Origin: Sulfurimonas sp.
Lineage (GTDB): Bacteria > Campylobacterota > Campylobacteria > Campylobacterales > Sulfurimonadaceae
DNA: 64,000 nucleotides
NCBI RefSeq assembly: GCF_028694605.1
Contig: NZ_JAQVKP010000008.1
Coordinates: 1-64,000 of the forward strand
Direction: 5' to 3'
Part shown: positions 24,990-29,481 of the stretch, piece by piece
How the letters are laid out: each line of letters opens with the position of its first letter
Position numbering within the stretch: position 1 is the first letter of the stretch
Made by a program: the position numbers and the translations under genes
Notes under the pieces: generated by a model
The model's input: only the letters and a program-made list of their open reading frames with translations
The model's database searches: none
Told to the model about the DNA's origin: nothing

Positions 24990-25547
24990 TTAGGGATGCG
25001 GCACTTTAATTTTTGAGTTTAAACTCCACCCTATGGCTACCATAAAGAGTAAAACCGCCGCTGATGGAAGCGAAGCGTAGGTTTGTGCCAAAAAGACAAG
25101 CCAGAGTAAAATTGCTCCCAGAGGAGTCGGTACGCCTGTGAAATGCTTGGCTACCTCCCCCGCATCAGAGTTGATGTTGAACTGGATAAGTCTTCTTAGA
25201 CCCGAGATAACATAGTAGATGCTCACAACTCCCGCCGCAAACATCCACACACCCGAAAAACTGCTGCTGTAAATGGCTTGAAAGATAAGAAAAACAGGCA
25301 CAAGTACAAAACTCAAAAAGTCCGCAAAGCTGTCAAGCTGAATGCCAAACTCGTTGGAGAGTTTGTACTTTCTGGCGATTTTGCCGTCAAAGATATCAAA
25401 CGCTCCGCCTACCCACGCCAAAATAACGGCTATGAAGAAGTTGTTTTGCGTGATGAAGTAGGTTGCCAAAAGCCCTGCTGTGATGTTTACAAAGGTAAAA
25501 AGGTTTGCGAGGTTAAAGTGTGATGACGGATTGTATAAAAATTTCAT
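24990..25547 (-). CDS. pssA: CDP-diacylglycerol-serine O-phosphatidyltransferase
   Basis: 185 residues, integral membrane CDP-alcohol phosphatidyltransferase. The catalytic motif D-G-x2-A-R-x8-G-x3-D-x3-D is present in FDGKIARKYKLSNEFGIQLDSFADFLSF. The remaining sequence forms five or six TM helices. The N-terminus NPSSHFNLANLFTFVNITAG resembles type II PssA proteins of Gram-positive bacteria and Helicobacter rather than the E. coli type. The product, phosphatidylserine, is the precursor of phosphatidylethanolamine. No psd gene is adjacent. Phosphatidylglycerophosphate synthase shares the motif, but the N-terminal features favour PssA. Confidence 0.82.
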   Translation of the reverse strand: MKFLYNPSSHFNLANLFTFVNITAGLLATYFITQNNFFIAVILAWVGGAFDIFDGKIARKYKLSNEFGIQLDSFADFLSFVLVPVFLIFQAIYSSSFSGVWMFAAGVVSIYYVISGLRRLIQFNINSDAGEVAKHFTGVPTPLGAILLWLVFLAQTYASLPSAAVLLFMVAIGWSLNSKIKVPHP

Positions 25548-25589
25548 ATATTATCCAATATGGTTCAGGTGTGCGAAATTATAACAAAT

Positions 25590-25747
25590 TTAATAGACTT
25601 CTTGCATAACCTTAAAATAAAACTTCATCCCTTCGCCCTGAGCTTGTCGAAGGGTGGATAAAGCACATGGTTCGACAAGCTCACCACGAACGGATTTTAA
25701 AGCTAACATTAAGCGAAAACTAGGCTTTGCAGGAAGTCTTAATAGAC
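25590..25747. repeat. MITE-like insertion with 9-bp direct repeats and REP-type core
   Basis: TTAATAGAC occurs at 25590-25598 and again at 25739-25747, as expected for a target-site duplication. Just inside lie inverted ends, AGACTTCTTGCA (25595-25606) and TGCAGGAAGTCT (25728-25739), matching at 11 of 12. The core has the palindrome CCCTTCG...CGAAGGG (25629-25654) and an inverted pair GAGCTTGTCGA/TCGACAAGCTC (25640-25650, 25672-25682). The core resembles the 'TTCGACAAGCTCA' repeat that is widespread in bacterial genomes. No ORF inside. It occupies most of the otherwise gene-free 25548-25853 stretch. Confidence 0.65.
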
Positions 25748-25806
25748 AAATAGCGTTTTAAAAAGATATTTGATATCAGTTATCAATATTAAGAGAGATA
25801 TAAGCT

Positions 25807-25825
25807 GATAGTGATTATCATTTCT
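25807..25825 (+). promoter_or_regulatory. Fur-box-like site upstream of porin-feoAB run
   Basis: GATAGTGATTATCATTTCT matches 14 of 19 positions of the classical Fur box consensus and sits 29 bp before the porin ATG. The downstream genes encode iron uptake and storage proteins, which makes iron regulation by Fur likely. The binding itself is inferred. Confidence 0.55.
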
Positions 25826-25853: not shown

Positions 25854-27065
25854 ATGAACGGTTCACTAAAGAGTTTGTTTTTTATATCTGCCTTGACATC
25901 CGGTGCAGCACTTTTAGCAGATGAAAATTTACAAGTAAAAGCTTCAACGGTTTCACAGATGTTCGAAGAGGGTAAAGTTTCAGGAAATATCAGAGCTATT
26001 TATGCAGGATACAATCAAAAGCAGTTGGGAGAAGATGATGTTTATGCTACGGCGCTTGGCGGGTATCTGAAATATGAGCTCTCTGAGCTAGATGGTTTTA
26101 GTGCGGCTGCTGCTTTTGCAGTATCGCATGATTTGGGTTTTGCTACTGGGGAGAGGGGAAGCAAGCAAAATGATGAACTCTCTTCGTCTAACGGAGAGTA
26201 CAATACACTAAGTGAAGCATATCTAAACTACAGCTATAATGATTTTAATTTTCGTGCAGGCCGTCAGCTTATCGATACGCCTTTGGCGGACAGCGATGAT
26301 ATAAGAATGATTCAAAATACATTTGAAGCGTATATAGCAACTTATGAAACTTTGAACTTTAATTTTATGGCAGGAAAGTTGGAAAAATGGCAAGGCACTG
26401 ATGCAGGTTTGGATAATGGCTGGGTTAAGACTGGTGAAGATGGCACCCTATTTGGCGGCATTACATATTCAAAAGATACAATGGAGGCAAATGCGTGGTA
26501 TTACAATATCTCAAAATTAACAGATGCAACATATCTTGACGCAAAGTTTGGCTATGAGATAAGTGATGATTTGTCTATTTTGGGTGCGGTTCAATACTTA
26601 AGAGAAAATGAGATTGATAATAGCGGTACCAAAGCTTCTGTATATGGCTTATTAGCAGAAGTATCGGCTTATGGCTTTACTCTAAATGCGGCATATAACA
26701 ACTCCCAAAAAGAGAGCGGCAAAGCAAGTTTTAGCGGATTTGGCGGCGGTGCGCTTTTTACGAGTATGGATAGCATGATTTTAGATGCCATAACAATGGA
26801 TAGGGGCGCAAAAGCTGTTGTAGCCGGTTTCACATACAACTATAATAATTTAAAATTGATGTATGCCTATGGGGATTTTAAGGGGAATGCAAACTCTCTT
26901 GGAGCAAAAGAGCACATCATAGAGCAAAATATAGGTTGTGAATACACCCTGCAAAAAGAGTTGATGCTGGCGGTTGTCTATGTTAAAGACAGAGACAAGG
27001 AGCATAGCTATAGCAATGGCGGAAATTGGGAAAATATGAGAGTTTTGCTCTCCTATAATTTTTAA
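25854..27065 (+). CDS. OprD-like outer-membrane porin, probably iron-linked
   Basis: 403 residues. Signal peptide MNGSLKSLFFISALTSGAAL, then a soluble-looking segment and beta-rich sequence with alternating aromatic residues, ending in a terminal aromatic strand (NMRVLLSYNF) as in outer-membrane barrels. Segments such as NFRAGRQLIDTPLADSDDIRMIQNTFEAY are typical of the epsilonproteobacterial OprD family. AAAGGA precedes the start. A Fur-like box just upstream and feoA, 44 bp downstream, suggest it passes ferrous iron or an iron complex through the outer membrane; that substrate is an inference. It is related to, but clearly different from, the porin at 39518. Confidence 0.85.
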   Translation: MNGSLKSLFFISALTSGAALLADENLQVKASTVSQMFEEGKVSGNIRAIYAGYNQKQLGEDDVYATALGGYLKYELSELDGFSAAAAFAVSHDLGFATGERGSKQNDELSSSNGEYNTLSEAYLNYSYNDFNFRAGRQLIDTPLADSDDIRMIQNTFEAYIATYETLNFNFMAGKLEKWQGTDAGLDNGWVKTGEDGTLFGGITYSKDTMEANAWYYNISKLTDATYLDAKFGYEISDDLSILGAVQYLRENEIDNSGTKASVYGLLAEVSAYGFTLNAAYNNSQKESGKASFSGFGGGALFTSMDSMILDAITMDRGAKAVVAGFTYNYNNLKLMYAYGDFKGNANSLGAKEHIIEQNIGCEYTLQKELMLAVVYVKDRDKEHSYSNGGNWENMRVLLSYNF

Positions 27066-27071
27066 TTAATA

Positions 27072-27090
27072 TGATATCTATTATCATTAC
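27072..27090 (+). promoter_or_regulatory. Second Fur-box-like site, before feoA
   Basis: TGATATCTATTATCATTAC lies between the porin stop and the feoA start and is a weaker match to the Fur consensus (about 13 of 19). It may give feoAB extra iron control independent of the porin promoter. It also argues that translation of feoA does not begin at the ATG overlapping it. Confidence 0.35.
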
Positions 27091-27109
27091 AGAAAAAGAA
27101 AAGAGAAAT

Positions 27110-27349
27110 ATGTCTGAGAGTACGAAAAAATTAAGCGAATGCAAAAAGGCGTGTGTCGTAAAAATAAAGAAGTTACACGCCACAGCAGAGCTTAAAGCGC
27201 GCCTTATATCCTTTGGTGTGATGAAAGATGCAGTTATAGAAGTTTTGGAGTATGCTCCCGCAAAAAGCACTATCGAGATAAAAGTTGGTAAAACAAGACT
27301 GGCTCTTAGAGCGCAAGAGGCTGAACTTATAGAGGTGCAAAAAGTATGA
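27110..27349 (+). CDS. feoA: Ferrous iron transport protein FeoA
   Basis: 79 residues from the ATG at 27110, preceded by AAAAGAGAAAT; an earlier in-frame ATG at 27071 falls in the Fur-like box and has no ribosome-binding site. The sequence is a small SH3-like FeoA domain: LHATAELKARLISFGVMKDAVIEVLEYAP, then VGKTRLALRAQEAELIEV, the typical 'L..LGi..G..v.v...ap..dP..v.v.g..iaLr..eA..I.V' pattern. It interacts with the FeoB G-domain in known systems. It overlaps feoB by 4 bp (ATGA). Confidence 0.9.
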   Translation: MSESTKKLSECKKACVVKIKKLHATAELKARLISFGVMKDAVIEVLEYAPAKSTIEIKVGKTRLALRAQEAELIEVQKV

Positions 27350-29481
27350 GAATCAATGCAAAGAGTTGCCCCATAACGGCAAAACACATTAAAGTGGCTC
27401 TCGTTGGACAGCCAAATGTCGGCAAGAGCATGCTTATCAACTCCATCTCTAATGCTCACTTGCATGTGGGTAATTTTACGGGCGTGACGGTGGAAAAGAG
27501 CGAGGTGCTTTTTGACTATAAGGAACATCATTTTACTGTTGTAGATTTGCCGGGAACCTATGCTCTGAACGAGTATTCCATGGAGGAGAGGGTTACAACA
27601 CAGTTTCTTATAGCCCAAGATTATGACCTTATCATCAATGTTATGGATTCAACGAACTTGGAAAAAAATCTGCAACTCTCTACCGAACTTATGAGTCTTG
27701 GCAAAAAGATGGTTATTGCACTTAACATGAGCGATGAGGCGCAAAAAGAGGGCATAGAGATAGATAGCAAACAGATGTCGCTTATCCTTGGGGTACCTTG
27801 CGTAAAGGTCTCCGCCGCTACAAAACTTGGTATAAAAGAGCTTATAGAAGCAGTGATAGAAGAGTTTGAAAAGAAGCACTCGCAAAACAAACTACTCTTT
27901 AGTGAAGCGGTGGAAGAGGAAATTGCGCTTTTAGAGGAGAGTTTGGCAAAGCACAGATTTAAAGATGAAAACTCATATAGAAACATTGCTATAAATCTGC
28001 TCAAAGGAGAGAAGCAAACTTATACCAAGCTCCATGACGACCCTGTCTGGACAGAGTTGCAGCCGCTTCTTGTAGAAGCGATGAGGCATATTGAGCTTCA
28101 CCACGGAAGCGATGATATAAAAGAGGCGTTTGCTGAAGAGTATGCATCTTTTAACAAAGGTGTTGTTGCCGAAGTGCTACACTTTGCCAAAGAGCCAAAA
28201 CGAAGAACGCTTACCGACAAGATAGACTCTATTTTGATTCACAATATCTTTGGCATCCCGATTTTTCTCTTCTTTATGTGGTCTCTTTTTCAGCTTACAT
28301 TTGAGATAGGCTCTATCCCGATGGAGTGGATAGACGGGATTTTTTCTTGGCTTGGGGACGCTGTGGGTGCGACCATACCAAACGAGGATGTCCGCTCTTT
28401 GGTGGTGGACGGAGTTATCGCCGGAGTAGGGGCGGTTATGCTATTTGTGCCAAACATCGCCATTTTGTTTTTGGGTATCGCGCTTTTGGAGAGTACGGGC
28501 TATATGTCCAGAGTTGCCTTTTTGCTTGATGGATTTTTCCACAAATTTGGTCTTCACGGGCAGTCTTTCATTCCGCTTGTCACGGGCTTTGGATGCTCCA
28601 TTCCAGCTTATATGTCTGCGCGCATCCTTAAAAATGACCGAGACAGACTTCTTACGCTCTTTGTTATCGGGTTTATGAGCTGTGGGGCGAGACTTCCTGT
28701 CTATGTTCTTTTTGCTGGCGCTTTTTTCTCTGAGAGTATGGCAGGAAATGTTCTTTTTGCCATCTATATCATCGGTGCATCTTTTGGGCTTATCGCTGCA
28801 AAGGTACTCAAACTTACCGCATTTAAAGGTGTGGATGAACCATTTGTTATGGAGATGCCAAAGTATAGACTTCCCTCTCTTAAGCTTATCTGGCACACGG
28901 TGGTTACAAAAACGGTAATGTATCTTAGAAAAGCGGGAACATTTATAGCCGTTGCTTCCATACTTATCTGGTTTTTTAGCAACTATCCGCACAATCTTGC
29001 ACTAGAGGAGAGCTACGCACAAAAGATAGAAAATGCCTCAAGCGAGGAGGAGAAGAGAGATCTTGCAAACTCTCTTGCTCAGGCAAATTTGGAGCAGAGT
29101 TATCTGGGGCAAATCGGGAAGTTTTCAGAGCCTCTTTTTGCACCGCTTGGATTTGACTGGAAGATGAGCGTAGCGCTTCAAACCGGACTTGCCGCAAAAG
29201 AGGTTGTTGTCTCTACGCTTGGAGTTTTGTACTCTTTGGGTGATGAGGTGGATGAAGAGAACAGCTCGCTCAAAGAGATTATCTCTAGCAATATTCCACT
29301 TGCCTCTGCAGTGGCGTTTATCTTTGTAGTTATGACCTACTTGCCTTGTCTGGCGGCTTCAACCGTCTTTACTAAAGAGGCGGGACATATCAAATACTTC
29401 TTCTATCTTTTGGCGTTTACCTCTGTTGTTGCTTATACGTTAGCATTTATTGCTTACAATGTTACGAAGTTATTGACATAA
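27346..29481 (+). CDS. feoB: Ferrous iron transporter FeoB
   Basis: 711 residues. The N-terminal G-protein domain has G1 GQPNVGKS (residues 21-28), switch I HVGNFTGVTVEK, G3 DLPGTYAL and G4 NMSD, followed by a helical guanine-dissociation-inhibitor-like region to about 270. The membrane part starts at ILIHNIFGIPIFLFFMWSLFQ and includes the Gate motifs with conserved Cys (FGCSIPAYMSARI, SCGARLPVYVLFAGAFF) and GLAAKEVVVSTLGVLY. FeoB imports Fe(II) across the inner membrane, powered or gated by nucleotide hydrolysis. It is followed 17 bp later by a ferritin-like gene, so uptake and storage are co-expressed. Confidence 0.97.
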   Translation: MRINAKSCPITAKHIKVALVGQPNVGKSMLINSISNAHLHVGNFTGVTVEKSEVLFDYKEHHFTVVDLPGTYALNEYSMEERVTTQFLIAQDYDLIINVMDSTNLEKNLQLSTELMSLGKKMVIALNMSDEAQKEGIEIDSKQMSLILGVPCVKVSAATKLGIKELIEAVIEEFEKKHSQNKLLFSEAVEEEIALLEESLAKHRFKDENSYRNIAINLLKGEKQTYTKLHDDPVWTELQPLLVEAMRHIELHHGSDDIKEAFAEEYASFNKGVVAEVLHFAKEPKRRTLTDKIDSILIHNIFGIPIFLFFMWSLFQLTFEIGSIPMEWIDGIFSWLGDAVGATIPNEDVRSLVVDGVIAGVGAVMLFVPNIAILFLGIALLESTGYMSRVAFLLDGFFHKFGLHGQSFIPLVTGFGCSIPAYMSARILKNDRDRLLTLFVIGFMSCGARLPVYVLFAGAFFSESMAGNVLFAIYIIGASFGLIAAKVLKLTAFKGVDEPFVMEMPKYRLPSLKLIWHTVVTKTVMYLRKAGTFIAVASILIWFFSNYPHNLALEESYAQKIENASSEEEKRDLANSLAQANLEQSYLGQIGKFSEPLFAPLGFDWKMSVALQTGLAAKEVVVSTLGVLYSLGDEVDEENSSLKEIISSNIPLASAVAFIFVVMTYLPCLAASTVFTKEAGHIKYFFYLLAFTSVVAYTLAFIAYNVTKLLT

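Follow-up and report, generated by a model that had tools for sequence, protein, structure and literature searches.

A short intergenic stretch of a Sulfurimonas sp. genome, lying between a lipid-synthesis gene (pssA-like) and an iron-uptake cluster, raises the question of what kind of element has settled there, how it could have arrived and which of its neighbors it might affect. The window, i.e. the whole stretch of DNA that was analyzed, comprises 64,000 nucleotides. According to the original prediction, positions 25590-25747 hold a MITE-like insertion flanked by 9-bp direct repeats, with 12-bp inverted ends and a palindromic core. These structural observations were all confirmed: TTAATAGAC occurs in two identical copies (25590-25598 and 25739-25747), the inverted ends AGACTTCTTGCA and AGACTTCCTGCA match at 11 of 12 positions, and the core contains TGAGCTTGTCGAA (25639-25651) together with its exact complement TTCGACAAGCTCA (25671-25683), 13 bases each, which belong to the two palindromic units listed below. 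An inverted-repeat tool reports an 18-nt pair with 83% complementarity and a spacing of 109 nt, the fold z-score of the element is -6.8 on the plus and -6.3 on the minus strand, and no open reading frame of at least 80 amino acids overlaps 25595-25739.

While the predicted stretch is real, its proper limits differ: judged by the 17-bp ends and the ANT target duplication of its family, the element spans 25595-25739 rather than 25590-25747.

25595..25739, no strand assigned: IS5-ended MITE of 145 bp, with limits taken from the 17-bp ends and the ANT duplication of the family
25595..25611, plus strand: left terminal inverted repeat AGACTTCTTGCATAACC, the exact family consensus
25723..25739, minus strand: right terminal inverted repeat AGACTTCCTGCAAAGCC (read inward), with 3 mismatches to the consensus
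25592..25594, no strand assigned: left copy of the target duplication, AAT, placed by alignment with empty sites and by the family rule
25741..25743, no strand assigned: AAT, right-hand copy of the target duplication, with an extra T at 25740 between it and the element
25590..25598, plus strand: left copy of the 9-bp repeat, made of host TTAAT and the element's own AGAC
25739..25747, plus strand: right copy of the 9-bp repeat, made of the element's last T, the extra T, AAT and host AGAC
25629..25656, plus strand: payload palindromic unit 1, CCCTTCGCCCTGAGCTTGTCGAAGGGTG
25666..25693, minus strand: payload palindromic unit 2, CATGGTTCGACAAGCTCACCACGAACGG as read on the plus strand, facing unit 1

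The family rule was derived from loci fetched across the genus, in which converging ends 40-420 bp apart gave 40 pairs. One chance pair (at L149, starting at 1369 and enclosing a real pair) was dropped, which left 39 elements for analysis; their loci were mostly picked by the end motif, so that a family frequency cannot be deduced from them. Identical 3-bp flanks were found in 28 of the 39 copies, and all 28 read ANT, the target of bacterial IS5 elements (PMC4482050, accessible text). When flanks were shuffled among the elements, the AT-rich DNA gave a mean of 12.6 identical pairs, and none of 10000 shuffles reached 28. The window copy stands outside these 28 perfect ANT copies: its flanks match over 4 bp (TAAT) instead of 3, and it is the only copy to do so. 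The extra T at 25740 may either be a slip or the sign of a 4-bp TAAT duplication.

With this footprint at hand, the 9-bp repeat, which had originally been taken as the mark of the insertion, has to be read differently: the family duplicates the 3-bp ANT, and the AGA of the right-hand copy is host sequence in an empty orthologous site (L220). That site reads ATTAATAGAAACAC, so that the TTAATAGA following the window element on its right belongs to the host; the AGAC on the left, by contrast, is where the element itself begins. The TTAATAGAC repeat is therefore a composite of the AAT duplication, a flanking T and a coincidental AGAC.

Relatives of the host allow the site to be compared before and after insertion. 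Some match to an 801-base stretch around the insertion exists in 128 of 135 genus genomes, and we compared the pssA upstream regions of the best 29 loci besides the window (one of them ending after 100 bases). Hereby, the core of the window element was absent from all 29 regions, and under a strict test both element ends were found in none. The predicted empty site was recovered in three loci (L217, L220 and L221), which are orthologous along the full intergenic region and carry no insertion at the site. When the element and one duplication copy are taken out of the window, the alignment has a one-base gap at the insertion site for L217 and L221 and none for L220; the latter has a three-base gap further along the intergenic region. 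Lone end-like matches with 3-4 mismatches lie upstream of pssA in L210, L212 and L233. The pssA-porin intergenic region of L212 (G039:C1) holds a different IS5-ended MITE of 103 bp, flanked by AAT on both sides, with a different palindrome core and extra bases in its left end, 11 bp from the position orthologous to the window insertion. The single matches in L233 (G065) and L210 (G126) have 4 mismatches each and are perhaps remnants of older insertions or chance.

The element is also repeated elsewhere. A DNA search of its own genome (2.15 Mb in 25 contigs) gave 9 hits, corresponding to 7 core-bearing loci including the window, one end-only copy (C1:16907) and one overlapping hit on the minus strand. 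The core 13-mer TTCGACAAGCTCA occurs 11 times in this genome, compared to 0 for the reversed-pattern control, and 9 of the 135 genus genomes hold copies of it: besides the 11 hits here there are 15 in genome G021 and one each in seven further genomes, the last being a level equal to that of the reversed control. The end motif with at most one mismatch was found in 26 of 60 same-genus genomes, the own genome included (reversed control: 1 hit in 1 genome), and 15 of 60 genus genomes contain a partial match to the whole element. No match was obtained with the whole element in the phage collection or with the core in E. coli genomes. Other copies and empty sites, whose joint absence would have spoken against the original prediction, were looked for and both found; together with the target duplications of the family and the full-length relatives described below, they uphold its reading as a MITE-like insertion. 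A separate inverted-repeat element lies at 290-577 of the window, with 42-nt arms of 90% complementarity and ends AAGGGCACCTCTAAAAA, and is probably the first MITE that had been predicted in this DNA; its end motif recurs in locus L005 of the own genome and next to the core-A copy in L007.

Full-length elements with window-type ends (0-1 mismatches) exist in three genomes, G052, G076 and G100. They measure 906, 907 and 896 bp and are flanked by the duplications ATT, AGT and ATT, respectively. In a fourth relative, a 949-bp element of G129, the ends have diverged further, with 4 and 5 mismatches, and the flanks are AAT/AGT. At its left end the window element agrees fully with L289 and differs by one mismatch from L286 and L287. 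In the 906-bp element of G052 the transposase would be spread over two overlapping frames, and its two halves match HTH_Tnp_4 and DDE_Tnp_4; its match to the NCBIfam IS5 model lies below the curated cut-off. Relatives of the second frame are present in 22 of the 135 genus genomes. In the own genome and in G021 no relative of this C-terminal half was found, nor was the N-terminal half found in the 25 contigs of the own genome; a Pfam search for DDE_Tnp_4 in the own genome was likewise negative, which is weak evidence as the control was positive in only 1 of 14 genomes. As no matching transposase was found in the own genome, the window copy is probably stranded now.

The interior of the element differs from what one would expect of a shrunken transposase gene, as it consists of two facing palindromes, here called core A. 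Its units begin with CAT and CAC and thus lack the CGTC, TGTC or CCTC head followed by an AT-starting stem of 8-9 bp that marks CGTC-tagged REPs. The payload of the window element is therefore a REP-like dimer without a CGTC tag and is not classed as a CGTC REP. In the plasmid collection, core A was found in 39 records from 7 genera, by name all Pseudomonadota and thus of a phylum other than that of Sulfurimonas (Moraxella, Sphingobium, Comamonas, Sphingomonas, Methylobacter, Variovorax and Methylotuvimicrobium). None of 8 inspected plasmid loci has an IS5 end at core A, compared to at least one end at 6 of 7 own-genome loci and at 8 of 14 loci of G021, where 0.20 would be expected by chance in each; these counts stem from an indel-tolerant search with 90-base flanks, a criterion altered post hoc, the ungapped first version (75-base flanks, at most 5 mismatches) having given 4 of 7 and 6 of 14. 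Since core A occurs in Pseudomonadota plasmids without IS5 ends, this palindrome pair is of wider occurrence and is here carried between IS5 ends. Either the dimer entered an existing MITE or the IS5 ends closed around the dimer. In L244 and L251 (G021), core-A units are also arranged in direct tandem, besides the facing pairs.

The same ends enclose other payloads. Sorted by motif, the 39 elements comprise 2 with core A, 11 of class B/E, 7 of class D, 6 of class G and 13 without recognized payload (an alternative motif pattern gives 10 for B/E and 14 for none). Those of class B/E and most of class D are head-to-head dimers of units beginning with GTCAT. Perfect ANT duplications flank 10 of 11 B/E elements, 6 of 7 D elements, 9 of the 13 without recognized payload, 3 of 6 G elements and neither of the two core-A elements. 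Three composites of one genome that are 93-96% identical (L190, L259, L265) sit at different sites with the duplications AAT, ACT and AAT, and three others with 90-95% identity (L132 and L146 in G039, L008 in the own genome) are flanked by ATT, AAT and AAT. As most composite units have clean target duplications, IS5-ended MITEs with palindrome dimers appear to have moved as units. There are also versions of 46-49 bp that consist of the two ends, a small palindrome and little else (L135 and L205 in G018, L149 in G053), as well as a 267-bp MITE with the same ends and no recognized palindrome payload (L133 in G013, L144 and L194 in G054, L147 in G007), which is 95-97% identical across three genomes.

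We also searched for dimers independently of the ends, in stretches of G039 (400 kb) and G041 (380 kb). G039 contains 14 head-to-head dimers, compared to 0 in shuffled sequence; IS5 ends were recognized on both sides of 4 of them, where 0.00 would be expected, and on at least one side of 6, where 0.12 would be. The single dimer of G041 has an end on both sides. For 8 of the 14 dimers in G039 no end was recognized, so that REP dimers are not confined to IS5 ends. Among the 15 dimers in these 780 kb, 8 possess 8-bp stems and 5-base loops in both units, and 6 of these 8 have an IS5 end, compared to 1 of the remaining 7, which have a shorter ATTGC...GCAAT stem in one or both units; this split was drawn after the dimers had been seen. 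The heads of the 30 units read CGTC in 18, TGTC in 7, GGTC in 4 and AGTC in 1 case. With such heads, an AT-starting stem of 8-9 bp, a loop of 4-5 bases and head-to-head arrangement, the dimers of the sister MITEs qualify as CGTC-REPs. Degenerate dimers are overlooked by this search, which missed four IS5-ended MITEs with palindromes in the same stretches, L263 and L265 (G041) and L182 and L255 (G039). In 80 pssA loci CGTC units gave no signal (13 compared to 15 in shuffled sequence). Plasmids contain only partial matches to the D core, in 2 records, and the B/E core in 1 record, a Sulfurovum plasmid; the plasmid searches with these two cores thus do not show a wide spread of the payloads. Three D-type dimers without IS5 ends in L315 and L324 (G039) have similar right flanks (TNTGTTCAGA, by eye), possibly a second vehicle.

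Whether the insertion affects its surroundings depends on the following neighbors.

24990..25547, minus strand: CDP-alcohol phosphatidyltransferase gene, pssA-like, scoring below the NCBIfam pssA cut-off
25578..25583, minus strand: -10-like hexamer TATAAT of pssA, preceded by TGT, 11 bp from the element
25765..25824, plus strand: conserved block on the porin side that contains Fur-box-like matches (25765, 25772 and 25807)
25854..27065, plus strand: porin-like gene, first of the iron run, with an Opr porin match below cut-off and no Pfam match
27071..29481, plus strand: feoA and feoB

The original prediction had placed the element directly upstream of a Fur-box-like site and had therefore laid the emphasis on the iron genes. 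Neither point could be maintained. The nearest Fur-like match, obtained with a low-stringency pattern for which 0.33 matches are expected, starts 26 bp past the element (25765), and the promoter that the element abuts is that of pssA. The porin-side block extends 26-85 bp beyond the element and aligns with the three empty-site relatives with a gap of at most one base. Because the block with the Fur-like matches is intact and lies beyond the element, an effect on the iron genes is less likely and a strong effect on porin-feoAB is not predicted; the insertion is probably neutral for this run, with its regulation left untouched. The pssA-like gene, 94% identical to one of Sulfurimonas sp. UBA6792, reads away from the element. 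Among 80 relatives, 71 have one of the hexamers TATAAT, TACAAT or TATAAC in the 70 nt preceding pssA, compared to 21.5 expected from shuffles. The gene would have lost its original upstream promoter DNA and kept an extended -10, and any effect is likelier on pssA than on the iron run. A promoter scan yielded 3 sites, compared to 1.3 expected, none of which pairs with the pssA TATAAT: one crosses the left junction (25590-25618, plus strand), one lies directly to the right of the element (25743-25770, plus strand) and one on the minus strand between the pssA hexamer and pssA. If the putative promoters are correct, neither transcript includes the element, which then could not work as a hairpin in an untranslated region.

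Four other explanations have to be weighed against an IS5-family MITE. Elements of the IS903 group duplicate 9 bp of target, and TTAATAGAC, an exact repeat, could in principle be the true footprint of a different element of this kind. However, copies whose flanks are unrelated usually begin with AGAC too, TTAATAGA is already present in the L220 empty site, and delimiting the element by the 9-bp repeats would put its two ends out of register with each other by 3 bases. Moreover, none of the 39 family copies shows a 9-bp target duplication or any flank match beyond 4 bp. We consider such an element scarcely credible, and a nine-base duplication was ruled out by the family footprints and the empty site. 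Somewhat less improbable, though still quite unlikely, is a REPIN-like element moved by a REP-associated tyrosine transposase (RAYT), for which the outer inverted repeats would be incidental. The facing palindromes of the core fit this idea, as does their presence at loci devoid of IS5 ends, namely 8 of 8 on plasmids and 6 of 14 in G021; in addition, Y1_Tnp is present in 7 of 7 genus genomes with a single core 13-mer hit, compared to 5 of the 8 genomes hit by the reversed control. Across the 135 genus genomes Y1_Tnp was detected in 72, yet not in the own genome or G021, the only two that are rich in the core (11 and 15 hits), although for the own genome this negative result has to be read with controls that were positive in 5 of 14. 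The IS5 ends found at 6 of 7 and 8 of 14 core loci, where 0.20 is expected, likewise argue against incidental repeats.

The other two explanations ascribe a function to the insertion. That it was selected for changing the transcription of porin-feoAB or pssA is unlikely, though of the four the least so. Its position 11 bp from a hexamer kept in most relatives, the second MITE that L212 carries 11 bp away, and the promoter-like matches at the left junction and directly right of the element are compatible with such a role, and there is a precedent in E. coli, where the accessible text of PMC11894529 describes activation of an operon by IS5 insertion upstream of it. Against it stand the intact porin-side block past the element and the promoter scan, with 3 sites where 1.3 are expected, none of which makes use of the TATAAT of pssA. 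A non-mobile, transcribed hairpin RNA, akin to the Aggregatibacter sRNA family RF02901 (AaHKsRNA41), is very improbable. In a 501-base search this family matched with 30.3 bits (E 3.6e-5), and the element folds strongly; the score is, however, far under the gathering score of 97, the family is absent from the whole-window search at gathering thresholds, and the match may reflect a shared dispersed palindrome.

In conclusion, we regard it as very probable, on the grounds of ends, footprints and genome comparison, that the window element is a non-autonomous IS5-family MITE that was moved in trans, carries a palindrome dimer as payload and was inserted at AAT. In this scenario an ancestral copy would have been recognized through its 17-bp ends by an IS5-type DDE transposase acting in trans, which placed it at an AAT in the pssA-porin interval and thereby duplicated the 3-bp target; a one-base slip would have occurred at the right end. 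The interior would be a head-to-head dimer of short palindromes taken along as payload, not a shrunken transposase gene, and the same ends would carry other palindrome dimers in other MITEs. The transposase would have come from an IS5 relative, none of which was found in the own genome. The two core-A copies of the 39-element set, neither of which has a perfect duplication, count against this explanation, as do the 4-bp flank match of the window copy, the negative search for an IS5 relative in its genome, the diverged ends and unequal flanks of the G129 element and the single end-like matches in L210 and L233. By its mechanism the insertion is ordinary; what is unusual is the payload habit of the family, in which one set of IS5 ends holds several unrelated dimers and which is relevant to the possible routes by which REPs lacking a transposase spread. 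For the locus itself, the analysis moves the promoter likelier to be affected from the iron run to pssA.

More tentatively, and in our judgment slightly short of an even chance, the IS5 ends could serve as a general vehicle in Sulfurimonas, with an IS5 transposase rather than a RAYT carrying palindrome pairs, CGTC-type REPs among them, from site to site and from species to species, and with payloads that are apparently interchangeable. CGTC-tagged REPs are, according to the accessible text of Di Nocera 2013 (PMC3733652), not associated with transposase genes and occur in five phyla, with Sulfurovum among the hosts. If the proposal is true, these REPs, reported without a dedicated transposase, would gain a mobilizer in at least one lineage, and an IS5-mediated route could explain part of their spread. 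The same text describes REPs within longer palindromes in A. variabilis, T. roseum and H. neapolitanus, so that there is a precedent for nesting in general. REP dimers inside IS5 ends are not reported in the accessible parts of the literature searched, including a MITE review (PMC10969869) and PMC12306157, and a text search for TTCGACAAGCTC returned no paper on repeats, judged by title.

Several known systems lend themselves to comparison. With those IS5 family members that duplicate ANT, which we take to be the ISL2-type subgroup, the family of the window element shares the 17-bp ends and the 3-bp ANT duplication, and its full-length relatives have the corresponding size and the HTH_Tnp_4 and DDE_Tnp_4 halves; unlike them, the window element contains no transposase gene, and the relative's score with the NCBIfam IS5 model remains below cut-off. 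The window element resembles bacterial MITEs in being 145 bp long, non-coding, multicopy and intergenic, with inverted ends and a target duplication in the family, whereas its interior is a REP-like palindrome dimer and not a recognizable remnant of a parent IS. The facing pair of short palindromes with a spacer recalls the CGTC-tagged REPs as they appear in the accessible text of PMC3733652, and the sister-MITE units, which have a GTC head, a stem of 8 bp starting with AT and a loop of 5 bases, are similar to its family CGTC-2; in contrast to those REPs, the window payload has no CGTC, TGTC or CCTC head, and the dimers here lie inside IS5 ends. A link between IS elements and REPs is also known from insertions of IS elements into REP sequences (PMC1525189, accessible text), but there the IS enters the REP, whereas here the REP dimer is found inside the mobile unit.
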